A program made the position numbers and the translations under genes. Below are positions 50,466 through 60,813 of a stretch of 64,000 nucleotides of DNA, in pieces. The notes under the pieces were generated by a model, which saw only the letters and a program-made list of their open reading frames with translations, was not told the origin of the DNA and made no database searches. Origin of the DNA: Colwellia sp. BRX10-3 (GTDB lineage Bacteria; Pseudomonadota; Gammaproteobacteria; Enterobacterales; Alteromonadaceae); assembly GCF_014077505.1 (NCBI RefSeq), contig NZ_JACGWA010000004.1, forward strand, positions 124,001-188,000, read 5' to 3'. The number at the start of each line of letters is the position of its first letter. Position 1 is the first letter of the stretch.

Positions 50466-53432
50466 TTAGAAATCCCACCCCATACGAAGGTAATAATGAC
50501 CACCGTTAAAGCTAGCAGGGGAGTTTAAAGGATAAATAGCACCTAAAAAGCCAGAGGTACGGCCATCACTAAATTCTTTCGGATAGGCATCAAAGACATT
50601 TTTTACACCTAAAGCAACAACTAAGTCATCTGTAATATCATAGGAAAACTCTACGTCAGTTATAATGAGAGGGCTAACTTTTTCAATGAGAGATACGTCA
50701 TTAAATTGTGCGTTATAAAAGCTACCATAATAATTAATACGCACCATCGCACTAATATCTTCTTGAGAAAAAGAGTAAGTTAATACAGAGCGCGTTTTTG
50801 GTATTCCTTCCTCCCGCTCTCTAAGTACATTAATATCTGTAATTGGACTTTTAGGATTGGTTACCGCTAGTTGTGTGTCTGTGAAATTAAAGGCTAATGA
50901 TAAAGAATCATTTTCTCCGATAAAACTTAATGGTAAACTTACAACTAAATCAACACCTTGAGTCGTTGAATTAAAATCATTAGTATAATATTGAATATTG
51001 GTTACATTCGAATCAATCTCAGAGTCTGCTAACAATGGTGCATCACTTGCCACTATTTCACTGGAAAATAATGATAGCCGATCATCTACTTCAATATAAA
51101 AATAATCTAAAGTAATATTAATTGGCCCTATCTCTGATAATACGCCGAAACTAAAGCTTGATGCAGTTTCTGGTTCAAGTTCCCCTCCAGAACGTGCGGT
51201 TGCAATTGGGCTCAAAGCACTAACCAATTGTGATCTTTGCTGTACAACTCTATCATTTACAATAGAGTTTGAGGTCGATATACGTTGGAGAGTGGATTGA
51301 GCAACTGTAGGAGCTCGGAACCCTGAACTAAGTGTTGAACGTAATGCAATTTCATCAGTTACTTGTAACCGAGCTGAAAGTTTTCCATCAAAACTATTCC
51401 CTATTGCGCCTATATCTTCATATCGCATTGCAAGTGATATTGAGAAATCCTCAGTGATGTCGGTTTCCAAATCTAAATATACGGCGTTCGATTTACGATC
51501 ATTCTTGCCAGCAGTATCGGGGGAGAAACCCGGAAAACCATTCGCACCTATTGCTTCACCATTGCTTGAAAAAGTACCTATCTCATAAGATGCGCTATCT
51601 CCAGCAACGACTTCAAATTGTTCGAAATGATGTTGAAAACCAAAGGCTATATTCAACTCCGATTCAAAACCAACGTAAACGGGATAAGTAAAATCTGTAT
51701 TAAATATACGTTCAGTTTGAATTTGTGAGCCCAATTCGAAGATGCTTGGTGAGTTTTCACCTAATGATGCATTTACGCTATTACGTAAGCCATAATCAAT
51801 ATAATTTCTACCGACTACCATACTAATGTCATAAGTTAATTCAGCACGATTGTTATCTATAGAGCCTCGAAAACCAGCGACTATACTGCTATCATTTATT
51901 TTGCCGCTAAACCTTGGGGTAAACCCTCCAGGAAAACGTTCATTAAAAGCAAAGCAATTCACATTGCTAAAAACGGTCTTTAAGGCTTCAACATCTCCCG
52001 TAGTTCCTGGAATTGTAGGCGTAGGACAGTTACCTGAATTATTATTAGTCATGTCAAAAAATAGGCGGGTACCATCATTGGGGTTGGTAAATATACCTGC
52101 ACGTGTATTAGGGTGGCGATAAAAAAAACTACCATCAACGGTGCGTTGTGCCCAGTTACCAAAAAGATAAAGCTGTTTATAATTACTGTTACCTGCAATA
52201 TCCATTTCAATATTGCCCACTAGCTTTACATTGTTAGTAATTTTAGGAGCACCCCAAATAACAACAGGGTCTTGTATATCATTTATATTAATACCACTAT
52301 CTATTAAGTTCTGTACTGCAGGATCTTGAATCCCGCGAGAAGTAGCATCGCTTTCTGATAGTTCGAATGAAAAGTTGGCCGTTCCACTTTCAGAAAAATT
52401 TGTTCCTAAAATACCTGACAGTTCAAACTTTGTGCCATCACCTTGATAATATTGGCCTGTTCGCATTTCAATACGGTTGACATCTGCACTGTTTTCTAAA
52501 CGAAAATTAATAACCCCTGCGATGGCGTCAGAGCCATATTGAGCGGCAGCGCCATCTCTTAAAACCTCGACACTTTTAAGTGCAATACTCGGAATAGGTT
52601 CTAAATCTACTCCGTGTGCACCGACATTTAATCCAGATATATATTCATAAATAACACTACTACGGTGACGGCGTTTGCCATTGACTAATATTAAGATACT
52701 GTCTGTGGGTAAACCTCTAAGATTAGCCGGTCTTACCAAAGTACCAGCGTCACTAATTGCTTCCTGCGTTGAGTTATATGAGGGAATAACACTTGATAGC
52801 GTAGAAATAATATCGCTATTACTGCGCGTTTTTAAATCTTGCTTATTAATTATATCTAAAGGCGCTAATGCATATCTAGGTGAACGATTTATTCGACGTG
52901 AACCTATAATTTGAATACGTTCAGCTTCAATTACATTATGTTCATTTTTTGATTTTAATTCAGCTGTATTTTGAAAGGTAATTGACGGTACATTAACATC
53001 AATATTTAAAATATCATTAAATTGGCGATTTAATTCAATTTTCAACAGTAACTTGGTGTTAAAGTGCTCTGAGTAACTGTCGTAATTAGTTAATGTTGAA
53101 GATACTGCAATCACATGTTTTTCAGTGGCAATAGCATTAATTGGGGTATTTAAAAGAATTTTGGCTAAGGCATCGGGAAGTGAATAAGTGCCAAATAGTG
53201 GATTGGTTTGTACGATTATAGAATCACCAAATGGATATAAAAGTGAATATCCAGATATATCTGCCAACTTATCTAAAGCTTCAGCAGCATTCATAGCGGG
53301 TAACTTAAATTCGTAATATTCAGTGGCTTGACATACGAAAGTATTACCTGACAATAACAAGCTAAATACAATATAGAATGAACTGTATCTGTGCTTTTTA
53401 TAGTTTATTAACCGACTGAATATTTTATACAT
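50466..53432 (-). CDS. TonB-dependent receptor with N-terminal STN signalling domain
   Basis: A 988-residue outer-membrane receptor. An N-terminal signal sequence (~1-36) is followed by an STN (secretin/TonB short N-terminal) domain at ~40-112 (ALDKLADISGYSLLY, then SLPDALAKILLNTPINAI). A spacer, the plug domain (~170-300, RPANLRGLPTDSILILVNGKRRHRSSV, AAAQYGSDAIAGVINFRL) and a 22-strand-type barrel ending in Phe (GWDF) complete it. STN domains contact FecR-type anti-sigma proteins, and fecR/fecI genes lie ~3.3 kb upstream. It is a paralogue of 53830-56418, which has no STN. The substrate is unknown. Confidence 0.9.
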   Translation of the reverse strand: MYKIFSRLINYKKHRYSSFYIVFSLLLSGNTFVCQATEYYEFKLPAMNAAEALDKLADISGYSLLYPFGDSIIVQTNPLFGTYSLPDALAKILLNTPINAIATEKHVIAVSSTLTNYDSYSEHFNTKLLLKIELNRQFNDILNIDVNVPSITFQNTAELKSKNEHNVIEAERIQIIGSRRINRSPRYALAPLDIINKQDLKTRSNSDIISTLSSVIPSYNSTQEAISDAGTLVRPANLRGLPTDSILILVNGKRRHRSSVIYEYISGLNVGAHGVDLEPIPSIALKSVEVLRDGAAAQYGSDAIAGVINFRLENSADVNRIEMRTGQYYQGDGTKFELSGILGTNFSESGTANFSFELSESDATSRGIQDPAVQNLIDSGININDIQDPVVIWGAPKITNNVKLVGNIEMDIAGNSNYKQLYLFGNWAQRTVDGSFFYRHPNTRAGIFTNPNDGTRLFFDMTNNNSGNCPTPTIPGTTGDVEALKTVFSNVNCFAFNERFPGGFTPRFSGKINDSSIVAGFRGSIDNNRAELTYDISMVVGRNYIDYGLRNSVNASLGENSPSIFELGSQIQTERIFNTDFTYPVYVGFESELNIAFGFQHHFEQFEVVAGDSASYEIGTFSSNGEAIGANGFPGFSPDTAGKNDRKSNAVYLDLETDITEDFSISLAMRYEDIGAIGNSFDGKLSARLQVTDEIALRSTLSSGFRAPTVAQSTLQRISTSNSIVNDRVVQQRSQLVSALSPIATARSGGELEPETASSFSFGVLSEIGPINITLDYFYIEVDDRLSLFSSEIVASDAPLLADSEIDSNVTNIQYYTNDFNSTTQGVDLVVSLPLSFIGENDSLSLAFNFTDTQLAVTNPKSPITDINVLREREEGIPKTRSVLTYSFSQEDISAMVRINYYGSFYNAQFNDVSLIEKVSPLIITDVEFSYDITDDLVVALGVKNVFDAYPKEFSDGRTSGFLGAIYPLNSPASFNGGHYYLRMGWDF

Positions 53433-53829
53433 ATCTTATTGTCTGATAGCTTTTTCTTAAAATAACGATCATAGTGAGCATCTTCCGATCATTACTTGGT
53501 TTGGATTTATAAGTTTTTCCTTGTTATTACTGGAGATTATTTAAATCAGTAACTGCAATTGCTTCTTTAAATAGTATAGTAACAATGTGTTAGCTACTGA
53601 TATTGTCATAGTAGTATCACAAAAGTCTATCGAACTATCCCAATAGTTTTAATTAGTTGTATTAATGTTACCGCGCTTTCATCGTTTTATAATGTGTGTG
53701 GTAAGTTATTAGAGCGTTGGCTTTGCTTTATATCCTTCATCAGCTACAAATTTTATGAGATTTTTTTATTTTTAAATAAAAAAATCCCAGCAAAAGCTGG
53801 GATTTATATTTGAATATAACGCTTGTAGT
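53433..53829. other. Intergenic region between the two TonB receptors
   Basis: A 397-bp region containing the terminator of the 53830 gene (53777-53803) and, nearer 53433, the presumed promoter of the 50466 gene. I found no copy of the shared ECF element (CTCTTTAG type) here. Confidence 0.5.
53777..53803 (-). terminator. Terminator after the 862-residue TonB receptor
   Basis: On the minus strand, stem ATCCCAGC with GCTGGGAT and a TTTT loop, followed by T7. It separates transcription of the two receptors. Confidence 0.9.
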
Positions 53830-56418: not shown

Positions 56419-56756
56419 GGTATTACCTTCCCAATATATTTATAGTTTTATAATTATCTTTTTCAGCTGCTATTTGATTAAATTTTTTGCAACTTACACT
56501 AAAGAGTTAGTTTGTTTGTAAAACCGTAAAGAAAATTTGTTTTTTCTTTAATTAATTTATAAATAGTTGTATTTACCGCTTTTTACCGCTTTATATTTAA
56601 TTTTAATTTTTTATTAACAGAGGTAATAATAGAGCTGATAACGGGGTTTTCAGGAGGGTATGAGGTATTATCATTCATTTTCAATGATAAAACCTCAACA
56701 CATAACTAAAATAAACATTTAGGCGTCTTGAGTTTACTTTTATTTAAACTAAGCCG
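56419..56756. other. Region between fecR-like gene and TonB receptor
   Basis: 338 bp with two notable structures: the ECF-type promoter element (56499-56530) and, next to the end of the fecR-like gene, a 15-bp hairpin with one mismatch (56661-56675 with 56683-56697). The hairpin lacks a clear T-run and may act as an attenuator or RNA end. Confidence 0.55.
56499..56530 (-). promoter_or_regulatory. ECF-type promoter element before the TonB receptor
   Basis: Read on the minus strand: TTACGG, 16 bp, ACTCTTTAG, preceded in the spacer by CAAAC. The TTAYGG-N16-ACTCTTTAG pattern is shared with 58395-58426 and 58609-58640, always pointing at the downstream gene. Distance to the receptor start is 80 bp. 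Confidence 0.65.
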
Positions 56757-57794
56757 TTATATTTTTTTAGTGAGTAATACTTTATTTGAACCAATGCGTT
56801 CAGACTTCATATTAAATGAAAGTTCTATCGCTTCTATTAACGCTTCACTGTCTTTTAGATCAAAACGTCCACTGATAGGAATATCGTGTAGAGTAGGATC
56901 ATTTAAGACAATCTCAATTTCTACATAACGATTAATCTCTTCAATAACATCAGATAATTCTTCATTAACAAAAATTAATTTACCGTTAAGCCATGAAAGT
57001 TCACGAGCCATATTTTCTGCTTTGATGAATGTTAGGGTAGGTGTTTTATCTTGAGTTACAACTACCTTTTCACCTTTAATAATATAAACATCATCTTTTT
57101 GAATCGCTGTATTAGTTAAATCGTTAATATCGGTTAATGTTGTATTTAGTGCCACTTTTGACATCTTAACTTTACCGTCAGTTACCGTGACTTGAATATC
57201 TTCGGATTTTAAATGTACAACAAATTTTGTTCCAATAGCTTGTACTAGACGATCACCAGCATAAACAATAAATGGACGATTAGGATCATGAGCGACTTCA
57301 AATAAAGCCTCACCTTTTACTAATTTTATGATGCGCTTATTGTCAGAAAACTCAGTTTCAATGTGAGTATTGGTATTTAAATGTATAATTGAGCCATCAT
57401 CAAATGTTGCATCCATCTGCTGACCAATTAATGTAGCATATGAGTTTTTATGTACGTCATTAGGCATTCCTACCCAAAGCAGCAGTGCCATAAAACTTAT
57501 ACTTGCTGCCAACATGACAGGCTTAAATATAGGTTTTAATATCGGCCATATAGATACCTTTACCGATGAATCTTTATTATCAATAATCATCAGTATCTCA
57601 TCCATATCATCCCAGACATCGGCCATAGCTTTTAATGCTACTGGGTGCCTTTTATCTGCAGATAACCAAGTCTTCAATTCTTTTCTTGATTGATCAGATA
57701 AATTACCATTGTCTAGTTTAACTAACCAAATGGACGCTTCGTCATCAATCGTATTTAAGGTACGAAGTGGAATTACTTTATTACTATTATTCAT
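56757..57794 (-). CDS. FecR-family anti-sigma factor/sigma regulator
   Basis: A 345-residue single-pass inner-membrane protein. The N-terminal cytoplasmic part (~15-55, ASIWLVKLDNGNLSD and LKTWLSADKRHPVALKAM) is the FecR N-terminal sigma-binding domain. One transmembrane helix follows (~93-110, MLAASISFMALLLWVG), then the periplasmic FecR domain (ATFDDGSIIHLNTNTHI to AIGTKFVV). The STN-like C-terminal domain (LSWLNGKLIFVNEELSDVIEEINRYVEIEIVL) ends the chain. The start codon overlaps the sigma-factor stop (ATGA), so both are made together. It should relay the loaded state of an STN receptor to the sigma factor. Confidence 0.92.
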   Translation of the reverse strand: MNNSNKVIPLRTLNTIDDEASIWLVKLDNGNLSDQSRKELKTWLSADKRHPVALKAMADVWDDMDEILMIIDNKDSSVKVSIWPILKPIFKPVMLAASISFMALLLWVGMPNDVHKNSYATLIGQQMDATFDDGSIIHLNTNTHIETEFSDNKRIIKLVKGEALFEVAHDPNRPFIVYAGDRLVQAIGTKFVVHLKSEDIQVTVTDGKVKMSKVALNTTLTDINDLTNTAIQKDDVYIIKGEKVVVTQDKTPTLTFIKAENMARELSWLNGKLIFVNEELSDVIEEINRYVEIEIVLNDPTLHDIPISGRFDLKDSEALIEAIELSFNMKSERIGSNKVLLTKKI

Positions 57795-58366
57795 TTTGTT
57801 TGCTCTTCGCTTGATTGATTCAGATGTACCGGAAGTTTGAGTTCATCAACTTCATATCCTTGAGCACAAAGTGACTGTTTGCATTGTTTTAAACCTTGCG
57901 CAATGTACTTTTCAATGGAACTTACAGATACATCCATTTTCTTTGCTATTTCCTTATGACTTAAACAATAGAGCTTTCTTAATAGTATCGCGCGGCGATG
58001 CTTTTCTGGTAATGAACTTAATACTTTATTAAAACGCTCAAATTTTAGCTTTTGATATAAGTCTTTCTCAACCGTATTCTCATCGTCATCTTCTATTAGT
58101 GCATCATCTAATTCTGTATGTATTTCTTTTGATTGTTGCATTAACTTTTTAAGCACTAAGTTTCTTGAAACAACAAATAAATATCCTTTTGGGGATTTAA
58201 TTTGTTGTTTAGCATCAGAGTCTAAAACTCTAATAAAAGTTTCCTGTAAAATATCATCAACATCTTGCTGCTCTACACTCATCTTCATAATAGAGCGCAC
58301 TAAACCATCCCTACATGACTGGAAAGCTGTTAAAACTCTATTGTTCGATTGCTTGTTTATTAGCAT
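57791..58366 (-). CDS. ECF RNA polymerase sigma factor, FecI-like
   Basis: A 191-residue extracytoplasmic-function sigma factor. Region 2 includes VEQQDVDDILQETFIRVLDSD and PKGYLFVVSRNLVLK; region 4 is LPEKHRRAILLRKLYCLSHKEIAKKMDVSVSSIEKYIAQGLKQCK with its helix-turn-helix. The C-terminus is hydrophilic. The gene overlaps the fecR-like gene by four bases (ATGA). An element with -35/-10-like spacing lies 28 bp upstream at 58395-58426 and recurs before the TonB receptor and the PutP-like symporter genes, suggesting autoregulation and a small regulon. Confidence 0.92.
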   Translation of the reverse strand: MLINKQSNNRVLTAFQSCRDGLVRSIMKMSVEQQDVDDILQETFIRVLDSDAKQQIKSPKGYLFVVSRNLVLKKLMQQSKEIHTELDDALIEDDDENTVEKDLYQKLKFERFNKVLSSLPEKHRRAILLRKLYCLSHKEIAKKMDVSVSSIEKYIAQGLKQCKQSLCAQGYEVDELKLPVHLNQSSEEQTK

Positions 58367-58394
58367 TTAATGTTTCCGTTAATACGCGCTTTAA

Positions 58395-58426
58395 CTAAAG
58401 AGTCTGTTTGTCATGTAATCCATAAC
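58395..58426 (-). promoter_or_regulatory. ECF-type promoter element before the sigma-factor operon
   Basis: Read on the minus strand: GTTATGGATTA, 6 bp, AAACAGACTCTTTAG. It matches the copy at 58609-58640 at 25 of 32 positions with identical spacing and ends 28 bp before the start codon. Confidence 0.68.
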
Positions 58427-58608
58427 AATTTTAGACAAAAGATAAGATAACATCCTTTTTGTCCCAACTTGTATAAATTATAACCGCGTTATTATTCTTT
58501 ACTTGTCTATTTTACCAATTGAATTAATGGATTTAATTGATGCTAAACAGCATAAAGTTGAATGATGCATCTTATGAAAAATAATGTTCATGAAGTTTTT
58601 AGTAAAAA

Positions 58609-58640
58609 GTTATGGATTATCGCTTAAACAAACTCTTTAG
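58609..58640 (+). promoter_or_regulatory. ECF-type promoter element before the PutP-like gene
   Basis: Plus strand: GTTATGGATTA, 6 bp, AAACAAACTCTTTAG. Same layout and orientation relative to its gene as the two other copies. It ends 57 bp before the TTG start. Confidence 0.68.
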
Positions 58641-60185: not shown

Positions 60186-60813
60186 TTTTAAGATTTACTG
60201 AATTTATTTTCAAAACATTTAAACCCCTAACAGATCTAACAACTAAGTTTGACCTGTTAGGGTAATAGTACAATAAATCCAATTATACTTAACTCCAAAA
60301 CACTATTTAATATTTTGAGGAAAAGCATATGCTTTTTAATGGTCCGTTTATCTCAGATTGCCCAACTCGTCAAAAAATCCGTGAATTATGTGCGTTTGTC
60401 TAGAACAGCTTTACATCCTTTAGTTGTCTTAAGCTGGGCAATAGCTAAATAAATAATCATTGACAAAGCGGACGTTCCTAACATCGGTTTTGAGACTATT
60501 TCAGGGTATAAAAAAACAAAATGAAATTATAGAATGAAAACAAAACCTATGACGGCTGCAAGTTCATAGTTTTAGTTGGCATTCCATCTATAGATGCTAA
60601 TTTCTGCTACAAAACAGTCATACTGCATTATTTAATAGATTCTAATGACTGGTCAGCTTTGGGATAAGAAAACTGACAGTTATATATTTCAGTATTTTAT
60701 AGTCGATGGTAAGAAGCAGACATTCGTATACTAAATGTAACATTAACTTATTGAATGAAGAGCTAAACTTTATAGTAAGTTAAAAGTTTAGCTCTGAATT
60801 TTCAATATGCAAT
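60186..60813. other. Gene-poor region after the PutP-like gene
   Basis: 628 bp without a recognisable gene. It holds a 9-bp inverted repeat (60225-60262) that may end putP transcription. A 24-codon open frame at 60329-60403 has a TGAGGAAAA leader but no recognised homology. A 12-bp hairpin (AGAGCTAAACTT with AAGTTTAGCTCT, 60759-60795) lies at the 3' end of the DUF3718-like gene. Confidence 0.5.

Follow-up and report, generated by a model that had tools for sequence, protein, structure and literature searches.

A promoter-like element shared by a FecI-type sigma factor operon, a TonB-dependent receptor gene and putP in Colwellia sp. BRX10-3 and its relatives

A promoter-like element had been predicted, from the letters alone, to occur in front of three transcription units in a stretch of 64,000 nucleotides of Colwellia sp. 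BRX10-3 (positions 124,001 to 188,000 of contig NZ_JACGWA010000004.1, assembly GCF_014077505.1; hereafter the window), and to define a regulon coupling outer-membrane import to an inner-membrane symporter. We propose, with a probability of about 0.75, that three promoters are under the control of the adjacent extracytoplasmic function (ECF) sigma factor of a FecI/FecR-type unit with likely proline import. The minus strand carries, in the order of transcription, the genes of the sigma factor, a FecR-type anti-sigma factor and two TonB-dependent receptors of 862 and 988 residues, with putP, the gene of a sodium/proline symporter, diverging from them on the plus strand (Table 1). The element precedes the sigma gene, the gene of the 862-residue receptor and putP, all three copies falling within 2.2 kb. 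Its conservation and its link to the sigma gene support the regulon interpretation as originally given, save that the set left out the 988-residue receptor, which bears a secretin/TonB short N-terminal (STN) domain and is likely to be the signal receptor of the unit.

The pattern TTAYGG-N16-ACTCTTTAG was found exactly at 56499-56529 and 58395-58425 on the minus strand and at 58610-58640 on the plus strand when the window was scanned, confirming the three copies at their predicted places; the six remaining matches in the window had three mismatches each. From the base composition 0.0004 exact matches were expected per 64 kb, by which a chance origin was rejected; the element is real. Compared as 32-mers, the sigma and putP copies agree at 25 positions, as had been noted for two of the copies, and the other two pairs at 22 each, and the distances of 28 to 80 bp given originally between the elements and their genes were right to within a base (Table 1). 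In the whole genome (3.87 Mb) the pattern gave three matches without mismatch, all at this locus, none with one mismatch and 19 with two, against 19 with two mismatches for a reversed control. The refined form, TTAYGGWTT-N13-ACTCTTTA, again gave three exact matches genome-wide, none with one mismatch and 11 with two (98 at up to three, control 98), and the loosest form, TTRYGGNTT-N13-RCTCTTTA, gave three exact matches and two with one mismatch elsewhere (control 4). Few other hits in such a scan had been named as support for a dedicated regulon, and the element is indeed not frequent; the 11 two-mismatch sites are at background level, and no further members of the regulon were seen in the 3.87-Mb genome with the refined form at up to one mismatch.

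Conservation of the element was assessed in 20 loci whose sigma factors are 72-98% identical to that of the window: the window itself, L099, L150, L105, L151, L051, L052, L053, L061 and L055, together with L100, L056, L057, L101, L059, L102, L060, L062, L185 and L186. The near copy L054 of L053 was excluded from the count, as were L183 and L184, which lie on the same contigs as L053 and L061. In a survey of the family a sigma orthologue was found at E ≤6.7e-56 in 14 of 196 genomes, that of the window included, and the named records with an orthologue include Colwellia maritima, Thalassotalea species and Cognaticolwellia sediminilitoris. In all 20 loci the loosest form of the element stood before the sigma gene (19 exact, L055 with one mismatch) and, always exact, before the gene of the 862-residue receptor, and it stood without a mismatch before putP in each of the 18 loci having putP there; in L061 and L056 putP does not adjoin the sigma gene. 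The element is thus conserved in the relatives that keep the genes, as the original prediction required. The relaxed pattern had been set after 18 of the 20 loci were inspected, and in L185 and L186, which were fetched once it was fixed, all six elements were exact. A first alignment was made of 43 distinct sites, in which the identical stretches of L059 and L102 were merged for sigma, receptor and putP, the L051 putP site was left out owing to a misplaced gene start, and one site of the sister locus L103 was included. In this alignment TT.YGGWTT and CTCTTTA hardly vary and the stretch of 13 bases in between is unconstrained, and in all 16 of its proline-type loci (those other than the sister locus) the sigma element lies 28-29 bp before the start codon. 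The CAAAC or AAACA in the spacer, originally taken for part of the element, is present in the window spacers but is not conserved in the aligned sites of the relatives, and was ruled out as a component. Shared ancestry of duplicated, functionless intergenic DNA, or mere chance, could be thought of for three copies inside 2.2 kb; with 4e-4 copies expected in the window, and with boxes that were kept in 20 loci while spacers and flanks diverged, the probability of such an origin is negligible. A separate conserved box, RGTTGCAAA, was observed shortly after the receptor element (about 56486-56494 in the window), in the presumed 5' untranslated region; it is found in 15 distinct aligned receptor sites and not at the sigma or putP sites.

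The original prediction tied the element to this particular sigma factor, and its occurrence does track the sigma gene. Two or more elements with at most one mismatch were present in 14 of 14 family genomes with the sigma gene and in 7 of 182 without it (Fisher p 1.3e-16). In 15 genomes with the sigma gene, 43 of 43 exact matches to the relaxed pattern were located at the locus, three in each genome save two in G101 and two in G039 (the third there with one mismatch), and the matches with one mismatch elsewhere in these genomes (13, against 33 control matches at up to one mismatch) are background. Five genomes in a sample of 17 from the genus had the sigma gene, and the same five had a 989-codon frame matching the STN receptor, while a homologue of the 862-residue receptor at least 77% identical to it was found in eight. 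Three genomes of the genus with the receptor (86-91% identical) and no sigma gene, G200, G201 and G202, contained no exact element genome-wide and two matches each with one mismatch (controls 1, 2 and 1). Within about 1.5 kb on each side of 16 loci of other FecI-like sigma factors (30-36% identical) no element was seen at up to one mismatch and one was seen at two. An order-level draw of 394 genomes, which omitted most known carriers, gave the sigma gene (E ≤1e-35) in three genomes, all of the same family.

Two conserved boxes at a fixed spacing that co-occur with a sigma gene have the pattern of a predicted ECF-sigma-dependent promoter. In the mechanism that we propose, TTAYGGWTT would be the -35 box and RCTCTTTA the -10 box, 13 free bases apart, of a promoter recognized by the adjacent FecI-like sigma factor. 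The sigma factor, the FecR anti-sigma factor and the STN-bearing TonB receptor would form a surface-signalling unit, in which a ligand at the STN receptor would lead to relief of FecR, and the sigma factor would then transcribe from the three promoters. It would drive its own operon, giving a positive feedback, as well as the 862-residue receptor, which has no STN domain and would take the substrate across the outer membrane, and putP, whose product would take it across the inner membrane; putA, for proline catabolism, is found behind putP in about half of the loci. The gene of the STN sensor would be expressed independently of the sigma factor, because it has no element and probably receives little read-through.

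Alternatively, the element might serve as the operator of an ordinary transcription factor, such as a regulator that responds to proline. A regulon of the GntR-type regulator HypR for proline and hydroxyproline has been predicted, which takes in putA in certain taxa and, in several Alteromonadales, a TonB-dependent transporter (PMC5343134, the part available), and the PutA of a relative matches the Pfam family 'DNA-binding domain of Proline dehydrogenase'. Such an operator is nevertheless very improbable, since the two half-boxes differ from each other, stand at a constant distance of 13 bases and show no dyad symmetry when inspected by eye, and since the element follows the presence of the sigma gene. 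The sigma factor is also the sole protein of a known DNA-binding type among the five genes searched per locus, the other open reading frames (ORFs) being unannotated; PutA is missing beside putP in a good part of the loci; and a sister sigma factor with another cargo has the same element.

This sister sigma factor, in G003, is 57% identical overall to that of the window, with 40 of 65 and 36 of 53 residues identical in regions 2 and 4 and 10 of 30 in the linker. Its locus has the order sigma, fecR, sulfatase and STN-bearing TonB receptor, with an alpha-L-fucosidase and a GH97 protein nearby. The genome of G003 contains 15 exact elements and 20 at up to one mismatch (control 3), and all 15 exact copies lie outside called ORFs, each directed at an ORF at a distance of 34-317 bp. 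The ORFs that come first after these copies encode the sigma factor itself, a GH3 protein, a G8/CEMIP-like protein, an ethylbenzene-dehydrogenase-like cytochrome, large CBM4_9 proteins (one above and two below the gathering cut-off), an FG-GAP protein, two TonB receptors, an outer-membrane barrel, a TPR protein, a metallophosphatase and two proteins without a family; sulfatases follow two additional copies with one mismatch. A search of 395 genomes with the G003 sigma factor gave two close kin, in G717 and G602 (80-86% identical), whose loci are likewise of the sulfatase type and have an exact element in front of the sigma gene, and also further proline-type loci. The two locus types were not found together in any of the 22 matching genomes, as expected by chance with 3 and 19 carriers. 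The same element stands at the sister sigma factor together with glycan genes, and the promoter code was therefore apparently kept while the cargo changed; the sister sigma/FecR unit (L103, L181, L182 and G003), with 15 exact elements in one genome in front of genes for glycan-related proteins and uncharacterized secreted ones, is a candidate sulfated-glycan regulon. ECF sigma/FecR units for glycan utilization in Bacteroidetes are likewise devoted to a nutrient and not to iron, with an STN receptor as sensor. The sister clade resembles them in sitting with sulfatases and glycoside hydrolases; the units here differ in being gammaproteobacterial, and those of the proline type in adjoining putP. 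No protein of the SusD family was found among 27 G003 proteins scanned with Pfam.

The STN family was matched in 17 of 17 orthologous N-termini of the 988-residue receptor (Pfam, E ≤1, best 9.2e-9) and was the only family common to all, while Pfam gave no STN match in the 862-residue receptor. No element stands before the gene of the STN receptor: the best match within 400 bp upstream had at least four mismatches in 20 of 20 loci, and an element at this place was rejected. A hairpin with a T-run separates the two receptor genes in 16 of the 17 loci examined, a count made without a shuffled control. Without an element and behind a terminator, the sensor and the transporter therefore look uncoupled, and the 988-residue protein would sense and the 862-residue protein would transport. 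It is conceivable that the STN receptor is after all expressed from the element, by read-through of the terminator or by RNA processing, as one canonical unit. The gene does lie downstream on the same strand in the window, at a gap of 397 bp, L052 has no convincing terminator between the two receptor genes, and the sister clade has its STN receptor gene on one strand with sigma, fecR and the sulfatase gene, behind all three. We consider this unlikely in view of the terminator found at nearly all loci and of the arrangement in other relatives, where the gap widens to 1351 bp (L051), an extra ORF lies in between (L185), or the STN receptor gene diverges from sigma on the opposite strand, with its start in the place of putP at the contig end (L056).

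The substrate was assessed from the neighbours of the elements. PutA adjoins putP in 10 of 19 loci, with the near copies L053 and L054 both counted. The window DNA at 60186-60387 shares 88% identity with the junction between putP and putA in the relative G163, after which the match stops; putA has been lost from its place behind the window putP, leaving a remnant region at 60186-60403. The relative G196 (L150) is likewise without putA behind putP. Between 52.5 and 59 kb every candidate Fur box differed from the consensus at 5 or more of the 19 positions, and control by iron through Fur was rejected for lack of a convincing site in this region. Because the putP element was kept in 18 of 18 loci, putA adjoins putP in about half of the loci, no Fur-like site was seen and a proline regulon has been predicted in Alteromonadales, proline or proline-containing peptides are the likeliest substrate, and we lean towards them. 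The earlier guess of proline gains support from the putA genes adjoining putP.

Several points weigh against the proposed regulon and its assignment to proline. The loci are kin, the upstream stretches of sigma and putP being identical in L059 and L102, and the 58 sites are therefore not 58 independent events. In the sigma-less genomes G200, G201 and G202 the receptor gene has other neighbours and an unlike upstream region, so that loss of the element is confounded with relocation of the gene. The STN match of the window receptor (PF07660, E 8.9e-6) reached 25.9 bits, below the gathering cut-off of 28.4, and AlphaFold modelled the STN region poorly (predicted local distance difference test score, pLDDT, 43.7), this model not being used. 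In 9 of 19 loci putA does not adjoin putP; the window is one where putA survives only as a remnant, and no element is directed at the two intact proline-dehydrogenase (putA) genes elsewhere in this genome. Neither receptor has its ligand identified by homology, and the closest solved relatives of the 862-residue receptor, matched over the plug, are receptors for ferric siderophores, colicin I and vitamin B12. The last two points could also mean that the regulon is right and its substrate is a peptide, another amino compound or an iron chelate, with PutP as a secondary member. We regard this as the less probable case, though one with a substantial chance, since PutP scores above the cut-off for proline symporters and is predicted to transport proline, its element was kept at every locus where it could be sought, putA adjoins in the remaining 10 loci, and a Fur-like site is lacking in the region given above.

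Three observations on related genes are recorded here. The receptors in the three sigma-less genomes of the same genus (L147, L148, L149), 85-90% identical to the 862-residue one, suggest that the gene left the regulon, whether by transfer or by relocation. Elsewhere in the window genome a second PutP is encoded, 74% identical to the first (L153, G000:C50:263041-264513) without an element; its gene adjoins an ORF that is distantly ECF-sigma-like (20% identity, 38.9 bits) and overlaps a further ORF, and a group resembling L153 is also found in G003 (L119). In the window genome no element at up to two mismatches faces this second putP or either intact putA, and one site with two mismatches lies elsewhere in L155.

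With the FecI-FecR-FecA system of Escherichia coli the locus shares an ECF sigma factor, an anti-sigma factor of DUF4880/FecR/FecR_C type and a TonB receptor that carries a signalling domain at its N-terminus, and it is a variant within FecI/FecR surface signalling, not a novel class of system. According to the available part of PMC9249621, FecI of E. coli acts on fecA, the gene of the STN receptor, and fecIR lacks autoregulation, whereas here the sigma gene has the element and the STN receptor does not, and the element is carried by a receptor gene without STN and by that of an inner-membrane symporter. The predicted arrangement of regulated and unregulated genes is thus the reverse of the textbook case. 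HemI of Stenotrophomonas is described as not autoregulated in the accessible portion of PMC12772443, and transducer genes are usually among the sigma targets according to that of PMC11637429. The locus also departs from Fec systems of the iron type in having no Fur-like site in the region searched. The HypR regulon resembles the present one in counting putA and a TonB-dependent transporter among its predicted members; it relies on a one-component repressor, unlike the ECF sigma factor with surface signalling here. No title among the literature matches listed named a proline- or amino-acid-directed FecI/FecR system, and the word proline is absent from the main text of PMC3400609, in the part available.

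The features of the locus are collected in Table 1. The sigma factor has the ECF architecture, with regions 2 and 4 only, and scored above the cut-off of the NCBIfam model sigma70-ECF TIGR02937 and below those of the FecI-specific models. The gene of the FecR-type anti-sigma factor adjoins it, and the protein did not reach the NCBIfam FecR equivalog model (105.4 against a cut-off of 385); PutP likewise did not reach a second model, PRK15419 (532.8 against 955). Just behind fecR, at about 56662-56696, an inverted repeat was noticed by eye, TTATCATT and AATGATAA separated by 7 bases, with longer flanking pairing and no T-run.

Table 1. Genes, elements and other features of the locus, in positions of the window
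Feature	Position	Strand	Basis or remark
ECF sigma factor, FecI-like, 191 residues	57791..58366	-	Pfam Sigma70_r2, r4_2 (regions 2 and 4)
FecR-type anti-sigma factor, 345 residues	56757..57794	-	Pfam DUF4880, FecR and FecR_C, all above gathering
TonB-dependent receptor, 862 residues	53830..56418	-	Pfam Plug and barrel, plug from residue 54; probable inducible transporter
TonB-dependent receptor, 988 residues	50466..53432	-	Pfam Plug and barrel, N-terminal STN; probable sensor
STN region of the 988-residue receptor	53085..53339	-	Alignment and Pfam PF07660
putP, sodium/proline symporter, 499 residues	58686..60185	+	TIGR02121, 714.5 bits against a cut-off of 515.5
Intrinsic terminator between the two receptor genes	53782..53805	-	Hairpin and T-run
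putA remnant, first 20 codons	60329..60388	+	tblastn, 85% over 20 residues
Element of the sigma/anti-sigma operon	58396..58425	-	TTATGGATT-N13-ACTCTTTA, about 29 bp before the sigma start codon
Element of the 862-residue receptor gene	56500..56529	-	TTACGGTTT-N13-ACTCTTTA, about 81 bp before the start codon
Element of putP	58610..58639	+	TTATGGATT-N13-ACTCTTTA, about 46 bp before the GTG start

Taken together, the data may tentatively be read, at somewhat less than even odds for the combination, as surface signalling for an amino acid or peptide, with sensing and transport split over two homologous TonB receptors, one only sensing and expressed independently, the other inducible, without STN and joined through the ECF sigma factor to the matching inner-membrane symporter, and with a promoter code that outlived a complete swap of the regulon, from proline import in one clade to the breakdown of sulfated glycans in its sister or the reverse. 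The locus offers a complete and very small testable regulon, of three promoters within 2.2 kb, for a FecI-type sigma factor outside iron uptake, and together with the sister clade a natural comparison in which one promoter code would serve two different diets. If the split between sensor and transporter is true, the two jobs of one textbook protein would be separated here, and signalling and transport could be taken apart by gene deletion. It would also reveal one way for marine bacteria to perceive amino compounds at their surface.

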